64,000 nucleotides of DNA from Marinobacterium lutimaris. Its GTDB lineage: Bacteria > Pseudomonadota > Gammaproteobacteria > Pseudomonadales > Balneatricaceae. How positions within the stretch are numbered: the first letter of the stretch is position 1; each line of letters begins with the position of its first letter. The notes under the pieces were generated by a model that saw nothing but the letters and a program-made list of their open reading frames with translations, did no database searches and had not been told where the DNA came from. The stretch is from the NCBI RefSeq assembly GCF_900108065.1, contig NZ_FNVQ01000003.1, forward strand, positions 186,001 through 250,000, given 5' to 3'. The translations under genes were made by a program, and so were the position numbers. Shown here piece after piece: positions 1,673 through 62,710 of the stretch.

Positions 1673-1928
1673 GACGACAACCTCTACAAAGCGCCGGGTC
1701 GTCCCGGCCATTTAACCGTTTGGGGAGGTCGTCCTCCGGGGAGGATCATCACACGAGTGCAGGGATAGTTCAAGCCGGCACTCGGCAGCGGACAAAAAAG
1801 GATCTGGTCGATATTAGCGATCAATGGCAAAAGAAAGTCGATCACGCGCCTACCAGAAAATAGGCTAGACTCTCGCTTTTTACCTCACCACCGCTGAGCG
1901 ACTCGCAGCAGATGTACGAGAAATCAAC

Positions 1929-34119: not shown

Positions 34120-34150
34120 AAGCCCAGGCTTTCAAGCCTGGGCTTTATAT
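34120..34150 (+). terminator. Rho-independent terminator after the transglutaminase operon
   Basis: AAGCCCAGGCTT (34120-34131) and AAGCCTGGGCTT (34134-34145) form a 12-bp hairpin, followed by TATATTTAC. It is the first clear stop signal for the five-gene operon. Confidence 0.85.
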
Positions 34151-34179
34151 TTACGGCTTTCAACCCCCACACTCTCTCA

Positions 34180-34397
34180 GCGCACCCTTGTCCCCTTCTG
34201 CGCAGCCGAGCATCGCAGACTGAAAGAGAAACAAGGGGCCGGCTGTCTGAGCGACGAAGTCGCGAGTTTCAGGCCCCGCTCTTTCAGGCGAGAAGCACAG
34301 GGCAGTCGGCGTAGCCGACCAAGCAGCAGGGGCGGTTTGGGATTGTTAAGGCGCTTGTCCGCACAAGCGCCTTGACTCGCCAGCAGGCGAAACCTGC
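34180..34397 (+). repeat. Dispersed structured repeat, copy A
   Basis: About 218 bases sharing blocks with copies at 60871-61118 (inverted) and 62463-62710. It holds an outer stem CTGAAAGAG/CTCTTTCAG (34220-34228/34279-34287) with inner GGGGCC/GGCCCC and GCGAC-GAA-GTCGC, a hairpin GTCGGC-GTA-GCCGAC (34305-34319), a hairpin AAGGCGCTTGT-CCGC-ACAAGCGCCTT (34348-34373), and the shared end CGCCAGCAGGCGAAACCTGC. Several stems differ in sequence from the other copies yet remain fully paired. It lies between convergent genes. Confidence 0.85.
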
Positions 34398-60870: not shown

Positions 60871-61118
60871 CTTGTGCTTGGCAGCACTGCTCATTTGCAG
60901 GTTTCGCCTGCTGGCGAGTCAAGGATCTTGGACGCCCAAGATCCTTAACAATCCTAAGCCGCCCCGACAGCTTGATCGGCTGCGCCGATTGCCCTGTGCT
61001 TCTCGTCTGAAAGAGCGGAACCGACTCTCCACCTCAAAGTAAGTCGCCGCTTCGCGGCTCAAACAGCCCGTCCCTTACTTCTCTTTCAGCCTGCGATGCT
61101 CGGCTGCGCTGAAGGGGT
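60871..61118 (-). repeat. Dispersed structured repeat, copy B (inverted)
   Basis: About 248 bases, in the reverse direction to copies A and C. It shares the end blocks (CGCCTGCTGGCG near 60905, ATGCTCGGCTGCGCTGAAGG near 61100) and hairpins AAGGATCTTGG-ACGC-CCAAGATCCTT (60921-60946) and ATCGGC-TGC-GCCGAT. The variable centre has its own GCCGC-GAA-style stem. It lies between the convergent pyrophosphatase and Ada-like genes. Confidence 0.85.
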
Positions 61119-61153
61119 TATCGGTGCGATTAGATCGTCTTGGCAAGAAATTA

Positions 61154-61444
61154 TCACTTGGGGAGTACTTTCCATGGATAGTCTTCATTTTCATCGGGGC
61201 CTGACTTCCATTTTTTATATTCTGCCGCCATGCAACGCCCACAAGGTCTGTAGCCGGCCTCAATCGCTGTCGCTTCATCTGCGAAAAATACACGGTGCTC
61301 CGCGTAACCTTTTGACAGCGCACTATTCGCCGCCGTGCAGTCCAGACGTCCATAGATACCCGCCTTGGAGCTGCCACCCAACGTACCTGGGGTTTCACTA
61401 CGGACGGTGTTTCCGTCCGCTGCCAGAAGCTTGTATGTCTTCAT
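61154..61444 (-). CDS. Ada metal-binding-domain-like small protein
   Basis: A 96-residue protein: YGRLDC (about residue 36) followed 32 residues later by AGYRPCGRCM resembles the zinc/methyl-acceptor domain of Ada. Three of the four Ada cysteines are present; the CxxxC partner is replaced. Aromatic and charged surroundings (HRVFFADEATAIEAGYRPC) are typical of stand-alone members. No DNA-binding helix-turn-helix or methyltransferase domain is attached. Function unknown, possibly sensing alkylation. Confidence 0.75.
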   Translation of the reverse strand: MKTYKLLAADGNTVRSETPGTLGGSSKAGIYGRLDCTAANSALSKGYAEHRVFFADEATAIEAGYRPCGRCMAAEYKKWKSGPDENEDYPWKVLPK

Positions 61445-61777
61445 CCTCTACTCCCATCACTTCAAAAAGCCGCCAGATGCAAATCCTGCTGCACCATAGA
61501 CGCACCCGCTTTTAAGCCTCTCCTGAGTATTGCATGCACAAGAGCCCGAGTAAGCTGGATTTTGAACTCTTTTATAGTTCCCTAATATTAAAGATACCGG
61601 TTATAGTCTTAGGAATAGAAAAACAGAAAAGTCTCACAAACGAGACACTTAATAGCAAGATGACTTGAGTTGATCTTAGATTAACTGCACCGCTCAATTT
61701 TATAAGTCTTTCACTAACTGCTTAGTATTAAAGATATTCTACGAAATAAAAAATCATATACAGGGTTAAGGTATCGC
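61445..61777. other. AT-rich gap before the CSD-DUF1294 gene
   Basis: About 330 bases rich in A and T, without a gene. ATATTAAAGATA-like sequence occurs twice (61585-61596 and 61725-61736) inside a longer imperfect direct repeat. This is the probable promoter region of the downstream gene. Confidence 0.5.
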
Positions 61778-62392
61778 ATGAAGCTTCAAGGAAAAATATC
61801 AAACTGGAATGATGAGAAAGGATTTGGCTTCGTAGAGCAAAATGGTGGCGGTGAACGCGCATTCGTGCACATAAAAGCTTTCAACCACAGAAACCGCAGG
61901 CCTGTAGATGGTGACGTTATTATTTATGAATTAGAGCGGGATAATAAAAACCGGTACCAGGCTAAAAATATCAAGTATGCTGGTGAAAGAAATAAATCAG
62001 CAAAGAAAAAAAGCACACAAACAGGAAGCCTCTTTGGTATTTTTATGGCATTTTATTTTGCCATAATTTCATTATTAATCTTTATTGGTAAAATTTCACT
62101 ATCTGTGCTGGGCCTATATCTTTTGATGAGCGTAGTCGCTTTTATCGCCTATGCGATTGATAAGTCTGCCGCTCAAGCCGGCCGATGGAGAACCAAAGAG
62201 AGCACGTTACACATTTTATCGTTACTCTTCGGCTGGCCAGGAGCCTACTTCGGGCAAGAAATATTAAGACACAAATCGATTAAGAAAGAATTCAGAACCG
62301 TTTACTTTATAACGGTCATATTAAATATCGCTGGATTAATTTGGCTTCATACAGATAGTGGAGCGATCGTTATGCGCCACCTCCCCTTTTAA
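61778..62392 (+). CDS. Cold-shock domain fused to DUF1294 membrane domain
   Basis: A 204-residue protein: an N-terminal cold-shock OB-fold (GKISNWNDEKGFGFVEQNG, then AFVHIKAF; residues 3-65) for single-stranded nucleic acid, a basic linker (RNKSAKKKST), and a C-terminal DUF1294 membrane domain with about four helices (YAIDKSAAQAGRWRTKESTLH, LFGWPGAYFGQEILRHK). It is clearly more AT-rich than its neighbours, with many ATA/AAA codons, suggesting transfer. The ribosome site is weak (TAAGG). It lies between two inverted copies of the structured repeat. Confidence 0.88.
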   Translation: MKLQGKISNWNDEKGFGFVEQNGGGERAFVHIKAFNHRNRRPVDGDVIIYELERDNKNRYQAKNIKYAGERNKSAKKKSTQTGSLFGIFMAFYFAIISLLIFIGKISLSVLGLYLLMSVVAFIAYAIDKSAAQAGRWRTKESTLHILSLLFGWPGAYFGQEILRHKSIKKEFRTVYFITVILNIAGLIWLHTDSGAIVMRHLPF

Positions 62393-62462
62393 TCACTCAT
62401 ATTAATCGACTGACTTTGGTTAGATTAAAAATTGAGAGCTCAGCTTTCATTAGAACCAACTA

Positions 62463-62710
62463 AGCGCCCTTCCCCTTCAGCGCAGCCGAGCATCGCAGGC
62501 TGAAAGAGAAACAAGGGACGGGCTGTTTGAGGCGAAGCCGACTGATTCTGGAAAAGTAAGCCCGTCCCGCTCTTTCAGACGAGAAGCACAGGGCAATCGG
62601 CGTAGCCGATCAAGCTGTCGGGGCGGCTTAGGATTGTTAAGGATCTTGGCCGTCCAAGATCCTTGACTCGCCAGCAGGCGAAACCTGCAATCAAGCAGTG
62701 CTGCCAAGCA
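62463..62710 (+). repeat. Dispersed structured repeat, copy C
   Basis: About 248 bases, same direction as copy A. Outer stem CTGAAAGAG/CTCTTTCAG (62500-62508/62570-62578) with 10-bp inner stem GGGACGGGCT/AGCCCGTCCC (62515-62524/62559-62568), hairpin ATCGGC-GTA-GCCGAT (62596-62610), and AAGGATCTTGG-CCGT-CCAAGATCCTT (62639-62664). It lies between the ends of the convergent CSD-DUF1294 and gcvP genes. Confidence 0.85.

Follow-up and report, generated by a model that had tools for sequence, protein, structure and literature searches.

A folded intergenic repeat of Marinobacterium lutimaris and other Gammaproteobacteria, apparently undescribed, with turnover at its sites and genes bracketed by its pairs

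What kind of element keeps its fold while its sequence changes, and why does it stand where genes end? Three copies (A, B and C) of an intergenic repeat raise this question in a stretch of 64,000 nucleotides of Marinobacterium lutimaris DNA, which was analysed at full length and is called the window below. A sequence-only reading of the window had proposed that the copies share conserved blocks while their stems change in step, that these paired changes reflect selection for structure, either in RNA or as a cruciform, that the copies always lie in tail-to-tail gaps, and that they might act at transcript ends or in collision control, or represent a REP-like mobile element.

The shared blocks and concerted stem changes are seen both in direct reading and in alignment of the three copies. 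The distal hairpin (P6) is AAGGCGCTTGT/ACAAGCGCCTT in A and AAGGATCTTGG/CCAAGATCCTT in B and C, and the hairpin with a three-base loop (P5) is GTCGGC/GCCGAC in A and ATCGGC/GCCGAT in B and C. The stem capped by GAA is also paired: GCGAC/GTCGC in A, GCCGC/GCGGC in B and a shorter GGC/GCC in C. The structured cores, or arms, are listed with other features in Table 1. The terminator-like hairpin ahead of copy A belongs to the transglutaminase-like gene upstream, and its T-run lies 46 nt before the core. Beyond A, B and C, the sole other covariance-model match within the window has an E value of 0.17. Elsewhere, the window carries a guanidine-II riboswitch (positions 1694-1740, minus strand; Rfam RF01068, 35.7 bits).

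Table 1. Positions of repeat arms, their parts and bracketed genes (window coordinates, except for the last line)
Feature	Position	Strand	Basis
Structured core (arm) of copy A, 207 nt	34191..34397	+	Covariance model matches, alignment
Structured core of copy B (left, inverted arm in the B-C pair)	60897..61118	-	Covariance model
Structured core of copy C (right arm in the B-C pair)	62471..62688	+	Covariance model
Intrinsic-terminator-like hairpin AAGCCCAGGC TTTCAA GCCTGGGCTTT, just 5' of copy A	34120..34146	+	Sequence reading
Motif CTCTCAGCGCACC of the inner end, conserved as CTnAGCGCAnC in the family, before copy A core	34174..34186	+	Reading, alignment
P2 5' strand CTGAAAGAG, copy A (partner 34279-34287)	34220..34228	+	Reading, stem analysis
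P2 3' strand CTCTTTCAG, copy A	34279..34287	+	Reading, stem analysis
P5 hairpin GTCGGC-GTA-GCCGAC, copy A	34305..34319	+	Reading, stem analysis
P6, 14-bp distal hairpin, copy A	34345..34376	+	Reading, stem analysis
P7 hairpin TCGCC-AGCA-GGCGA, copy A	34377..34390	+	Reading, stem analysis
Segment bracketed by B and C	61119..62470	.	Comparison with sister genome
Ada-type zinc-binding protein of 96 aa between B and C, common to sister genome	61154..61444	-	Pfam PF02805
204-aa cold-shock domain and DUF1294 protein, in the non-aligning segment	61778..62392	+	Pfam PF00313, PF06961
Reverse transcriptase-trypsin fusion, retron type XI-like, M. mangrovicola island	L087:6052-7884	-	

Fold, covariation and spread of the arm

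The outer stem of the arm, P1, has the form CCCC...GGGG and covaries in its inner part. The other elements are a long branch formed by P2-P3-P4 and the hairpins P5, P6 (14 bp) and P7. Shorter arms, in which the P2-P4 branch is missing, recur at two loci (L158 and L170), in both sister genomes. When 78 distinct copies from the two sister genomes were aligned by plain sequence alignment, in which structure was not used, Watson-Crick pairs occupied 3591 of 3724 stem cells (96.4%); the others comprise 63 G-U, 12 A-C and 58 further combinations. A broader set of 136 model matches from 90 loci has a median pairwise identity of 0.55. In this set, pairing is present in 93.8% of 6381 cells (60.4% in shuffled and at most 48.1% in slid controls), both sides change at 54 of 55 pairs, and the covariation score is 0.614 (0.147 shuffled, at most 0.108 slid), in an alignment that was fitted to the covariance model, as alignments A3-A5 all were, and therefore leans towards the model's structure. 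The covariance-model check suggested by the sequence-only reading thus found stems that are neither unpaired nor drifting at random, and with pairing and covariation far above both controls, selection for structure is very strongly supported.

Use of G-U pairs in the stems is low overall. G-U cells outnumber A-C cells by 211 to 45 in the 136 matches, with a G-U excess in 38 columns versus 8, and by 63 to 12 in the plain alignment. This excess suggests that one strand folds, rather than both alike. Of the two forms of structure that had been proposed, a single folding strand (RNA or single-stranded DNA) is therefore favoured, and the G-U excess argues against a symmetrical cruciform.

A search of the genome with copy C finds 40 places (E at most 8.1e-30), and copy A adds one more. 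With up to 40 candidates scored per search, the 41 copies studied are a lower bound (at least 41 in M. lutimaris). The sister genome, M. mangrovicola DSM 27697 (G003), in which the flanking genes are ~95% identical, has a similar copy number; numbers for other genomes are likewise lower bounds, since the large searches scored up to 20 or six candidates per genome. In accord with the suggestion that relatives be searched, the arm model (R1) has matches across the family (42 of 116 genomes, nine of 16 genera) and the class (50 of 369 genomes sampled from gammaproteobacteria, 43 of 272 genera), the class-wide matches being obtained with a model whose training set came from a single genus. When named genomes were scanned with a pattern, at least 98 stretches matched, and the titles among the matches listed include Ectothiorhodospiraceae, Thiohalobacter, Sedimenticola, Chromatiales, Arenicellales, Amphritea, Pontibacterium and a few labelled Deltaproteobacteria. 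Arms also occur on two contigs from a viral collection (L271:887-1336 and L270:7559-7776), one as a doublet. A similarity search of phages and plasmids with copy A returned nothing useful, and two divergent arms gave short partial matches to plasmids and none to phages. No Rfam family matched the arms, either at the gathering score or at E values up to 1.

Gene context and turnover at sites

Each of copies A, B and C lies between convergent open reading frames, as called by our own ORF caller. In the whole genome, with genes called by a hexamer script rather than a standard gene caller, the gaps of the 41 copies (P1 side first) are tail-to-tail in 30 cases, tail-head in seven, head-tail in two and head-head in one; the remaining copy has no called gene on its P1 side. 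The idea that the gaps are always tail-to-tail is thus correct for the window and expresses a strong bias of the genome, but it is not a rule, since 11 of 41 copies lie otherwise. Convergent gaps account for 30 of 40 copies, compared with 11 of 52 gene pairs in the window (p 2.6e-7). In 37 of 40 copies the gene on the P1 side reads towards the element, as does the gene on the P7 side in 33 of 41. Similarly, 22 of 27 solitary copies in M. mangrovicola are tail-to-tail. In other taxa, the frequencies of gap types are also unequal: among units with both neighbours called, 23 of 57 are tail-to-tail (33 of 308 background gaps) and one of 57 is head-head (57 of 308 background gaps). For 25 of 41 copies, a terminator-like site occurs in the 260 bp that precede P1, versus 46 of 205 in a control made by simple letter shuffling.

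Comparison of the sister genomes reveals that many of these positions are occupied in one genome and empty in the other. Sites were compared via gene ends, starting from 13 copies in the M. lutimaris genome that have no counterpart among the M. mangrovicola copies retrieved and eight in M. mangrovicola that have none in M. lutimaris. For 18 of these 21 sites, both gene ends lie on one contig and the sites are comparable. As determined by blastn with the filled site, blastn with four cores and the covariance model, the element is absent from the other genome at 15 of the 18; here the four cores gave a single weak match of 19 nt (L162). The other three sites hold shortened copies, two without P2-P4 (L158 and L170) and one truncated in its 3' part (L159). 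The site of copy A lacks the element in five other relatives as well. With respect to whether empty sites reflect gain or loss, relatives were uninformative at the one site examined.

Sharp comparisons place the left edge of the element 116-123 bp before P1 (seven sites) and its right edge 107-115 bp beyond P7 (four sites), which defines one subfamily of ~440 bp. Its right end has its own hairpin, followed by ATTTTTAC, and its terminal hairpins are imperfect. Inverted outer ends are seen at L004, L005 and L009. The subfamily starts next to the terminator T-run of a host gene: inspected by eye, 11 of 18 aligned copies have a T-run directly before the left edge, and the junctions, whose flanks are ~5-15% diverged, exhibit no clear target duplication. 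At two places (L164, G000:C10 at ~549 kb, and L171, G000:C18 at ~1069 kb), a tandem GC-rich repeat that contains GTAGGAGCGGCGCCCCCGCCGCGATC and is REP-like by eye stands where the sister genome has an arm. Beside another element (L002, left flank, G000:C11 at ~82.7 kb) is a short tandem run of GGCTTTCA units.

Sites that are filled in both genomes have also changed. For 20 of the 41 copies, all of them solitary, M. mangrovicola has a counterpart in the corresponding gap; 13 of these agree in orientation and seven, including copy A, are reversed. In the copy A gap of M. mangrovicola, it is the terminator of the other gene that the element follows. A simple inversion in place was considered for the reversed copies and rejected, because at all seven sites the rest of the gap is unalignable in either orientation; replacements or separate insertions therefore explain them better than clean inversions. 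At one such pair (L011/L126), the sister genome has an apparent end of a forward arm beside the reverse arm, and this remnant makes replacement likelier than inversion. Of the 13 pairs in the same orientation, six are at least 96.8% identical, and in five others the closest copy sits at another site. Sites therefore persist while their occupants and orientation change.

Once in place, an arm seems to diverge unevenly. At the six shared sites, which are a small sample picked for high identity after the data had been seen, five of 575 stem positions and 19 of 668 loop positions have changed (p 0.012); with a seventh site, the counts are nine of 671 and 28 of 773 (p 0.007). Stems that change more slowly than loops point to a function after insertion, and the transcript-end function put forward in the sequence-only reading would be compatible with them. 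The main rival to a mobile element is a structured RNA with a host function at the 3' ends of genes, where it might stabilise messages or stop antisense transcription into the facing gene, having spread by gene conversion; read-through or cargo transcripts would then end in a folded arm. Besides the slow stems, this idea is favoured by the P1-side genes directed at arms, the excess of G-U over A-C and the avoidance of head-head gaps. However, absence at 15 of 18 sites and reversal at seven of 20 fit poorly with a part that is needed locally, and the slow stems come from only six sites chosen for their identity. We therefore view host function at 3' ends as possible but on balance doubtful.

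Inverted doublets and bracketed genes

Copies are mostly single in the genus of the window. In other taxa, 41 of 72 units are single, and a diverged partner that was missed can explain some of these. Where arms are close, their arrangement is highly regular. Among all 90 loci (alignment A3), neighbours within 250 bp are inverted with their P1 ends inward in 30 of 31 cases, the exception being a forward-reverse pair that overlaps by 27 nt (L059). At distances of 251-3500 bp, nine of 15 neighbours are arranged in this way, and five of all 46 point in the same direction. In a 69-locus set, doublet spacers range from 17 to 171 bp, and GTGCCA/TGGCAC is frequent in them. The shortest of them would leave little room for two outward promoters, which is a further point against the host RNA. 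In three doublets (L100, L101 and L076), the arms differ by eye in the type of P6 (GGGGAGTT and GGGAGGG), as if they were two distinct halves.

Some more widely spaced arms, among them the inverted pair B and C with P1 ends inward, enclose genes, and, as the sequence-only reading did not catch, the segment bracketed by B and C differs in the sister species. The left block aligns with M. mangrovicola up to position 61451 and the right block from 62472, whereas 61452-62471 does not align; its counterpart contains another arm and a 634-aa open reading frame without a Pfam match. In a second island, homology ends 22 nt inside the inner end of one arm and resumes 22 nt before that of another. M. 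mangrovicola carries here a reverse transcriptase-trypsin protein (PADLOC retron type RT-Protease_XI, 7.6e-188) that is absent from the M. lutimaris genome. A bracketed segment differs likewise between M. lacunae and M. ramblicola. Segments between arms have been exchanged, just as occupants of single sites have.

Other bracketed proteins include PIN7, HNH, DUF6119, DUF6731 and a GIY-YIG protein with a partial PD-T4-3 match. PADLOC analysis of ten proteins gave three defence-like matches and a fourth that is a generic cold-shock match. Many of the genes that lie between copies have ordinary metabolic or signalling roles, and some intervals between copies, for example L084, may be plain neighbouring gaps. 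Judging from these comparisons, repeat pairs can bracket accessory genes, some of them with predicted anti-phage roles, that differ between close relatives.

An arm in M. lacunae resembles a hybrid of two M. ramblicola arms, as recombination between arms would produce. Homologous recombination might even be the sole means by which inert repeats spread, with convergent gaps being merely the least harmful places, which corresponds to the "least worst location" reading of Silby 2009 (PMC2718517). Yet recombination alone does not create new sites, and both the sharp left edge behind terminators and the 54 of 55 covarying pairs call for a process that reads the fold. We consider inert repeats highly improbable.

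A putative mobilising process and its relation to known systems

No autonomous copy or mobilising enzyme was found, and neither Y1 transposases nor reverse transcriptases track the repeat. Eight genomes with 8-16 matches (G060, G061, G062, G070, G071, G089, G098 and G099) have no protein matching PF01797 (Y1/RAYT), and the M. lutimaris genome has one weak partial match to this family and none to PF00078 (RVT_1, reverse transcriptase). Therefore, neither enzyme is a general mobiliser. The lack of a Y1 or reverse transcriptase partner would also suit inert repeats.

Our preferred explanation, to which we assign a probability of roughly 0.5, is that the repeat is a non-autonomous mobile element. 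A putative enzyme would recognise a folded single strand (DNA or RNA) of the P1 to P7 arm and insert the arm behind terminators or behind existing arms, which would account for the bias towards convergent gaps, the doublets and the persistence of slots. Genes lying between two arms would then be swapped when these recombine, so that arms would act as boundaries of exchangeable cassettes. Points against a mobile repeat are the lack of an enzyme and of a clear target duplication, the slow stems, the ordinary genes between copies and the many single copies elsewhere.

Several known systems share features with this proposal. Group IIC introns target terminators, and as structured RNA elements behind intrinsic terminators they resemble the arms. 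A group II intron was nevertheless rejected, because the arms have no Rfam intron or Domain V match and the M. lutimaris genome has no reverse transcriptase. In integron cassettes, the structure of attC rather than its sequence is kept, and accessory genes lie between sites in direct arrays. The arms likewise retain structure over sequence and can have accessory genes between them, but they are mostly inverted rather than direct repeats. The repeat could belong to a system of the attC or IS200/IS605 type that acts on single-stranded DNA, in which a recombinase encoded elsewhere would cut and join the folded strand. Such a system is consistent with structure kept while sequence changes, with one favoured strand, with cassettes bracketed by arms and with the resemblance of inverted arms to REPIN doublets. 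However, Y1 transposases are absent from eight genomes with at least eight copies, and attC arrays are direct whereas the arms are inverted, which makes this explanation quite unlikely.

Like REP/REPIN sequences with their RAYT proteins (PMC3116915, PMC2817692), the repeat is intergenic, multicopy, palindromic, non-autonomous and often found as inverted doublets. It differs in its arm of ~205 nt, which has at least seven helices where a REP has a single short hairpin, in covarying across many families of one class, in pairs that can bracket genes, and in the failure of Y1 transposases to track it. The multi-helix arm and the Y1 distribution rule out an ordinary REP. As for the proposed REP-like mobile element, mobility is supported by presence and absence between sisters and by occupant turnover, whereas the likeness to REP is weakened by the lack of the Y1 partner in eight genomes with at least eight copies and by a far more complex fold.

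The R-families of Pseudomonas fluorescens (50-352 bp, with inverted repeats and a Tail-repeat-Tail bias; Silby 2009, PMC2718517) are alike in being intergenic repeats with a tail-to-tail bias, and kinship, for example with R6, R178 or R200, is conceivable. YPAL/RU-2, ERIC, RUP, NEMIS and CIR MITEs, of 100-200 bp and confined to one genus or family (PMC2229807), are also small, mobile, structured repeats; YPAL targets sites at or beside dyad symmetries, with target duplications of 3-26 bp. These MITEs form a long stem-loop, in contrast to the multi-branched fold described here, for which no clear target duplication is seen. By analogy, the repeat is REPIN- or MITE-like in being small, structured, intergenic and, as we suppose, non-autonomous, and integron-like in bracketing genes that seem exchangeable.

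Literature searches by text and by sequence strings, with most subscription journals and supplements outside their scope, found no apparent description of these arms. Unless it is akin to the P. fluorescens R-families, this family of folded repeats apparently has not been described. The fold, taxonomic spread, inward doublets and cassette boundary appear to be new. The tail-to-tail bias of intergenic repeats (Silby 2009, PMC2718517) and insertion at dyad symmetries (YPAL, PMC2229807) are already in print.

The mobile repeat might also be part of something larger, namely a gammaproteobacterial cassette system recognised by its fold. Arms of ~205 nt behind terminators would be read as a single strand by a putative recombinase, and inverted pairs would load, swap and shed accessory and anti-phage genes at fixed slots, analogously to integrons but with neither the integrase nor the site of integrons. 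We regard this extension as speculative and rather unlikely.

With matches in 50 of 369 gammaproteobacterial genomes and no entry in Rfam, the repeat would fill a considerable gap in what is catalogued of bacterial noncoding sequence. The covariance models allow anyone to list its slots. If arms are cassette boundaries, they would show at which points accessory and defence genes come into conserved neighbourhoods and offer a search handle for novel cargo, and the movement of genes without a transposase of their own would become directly testable.
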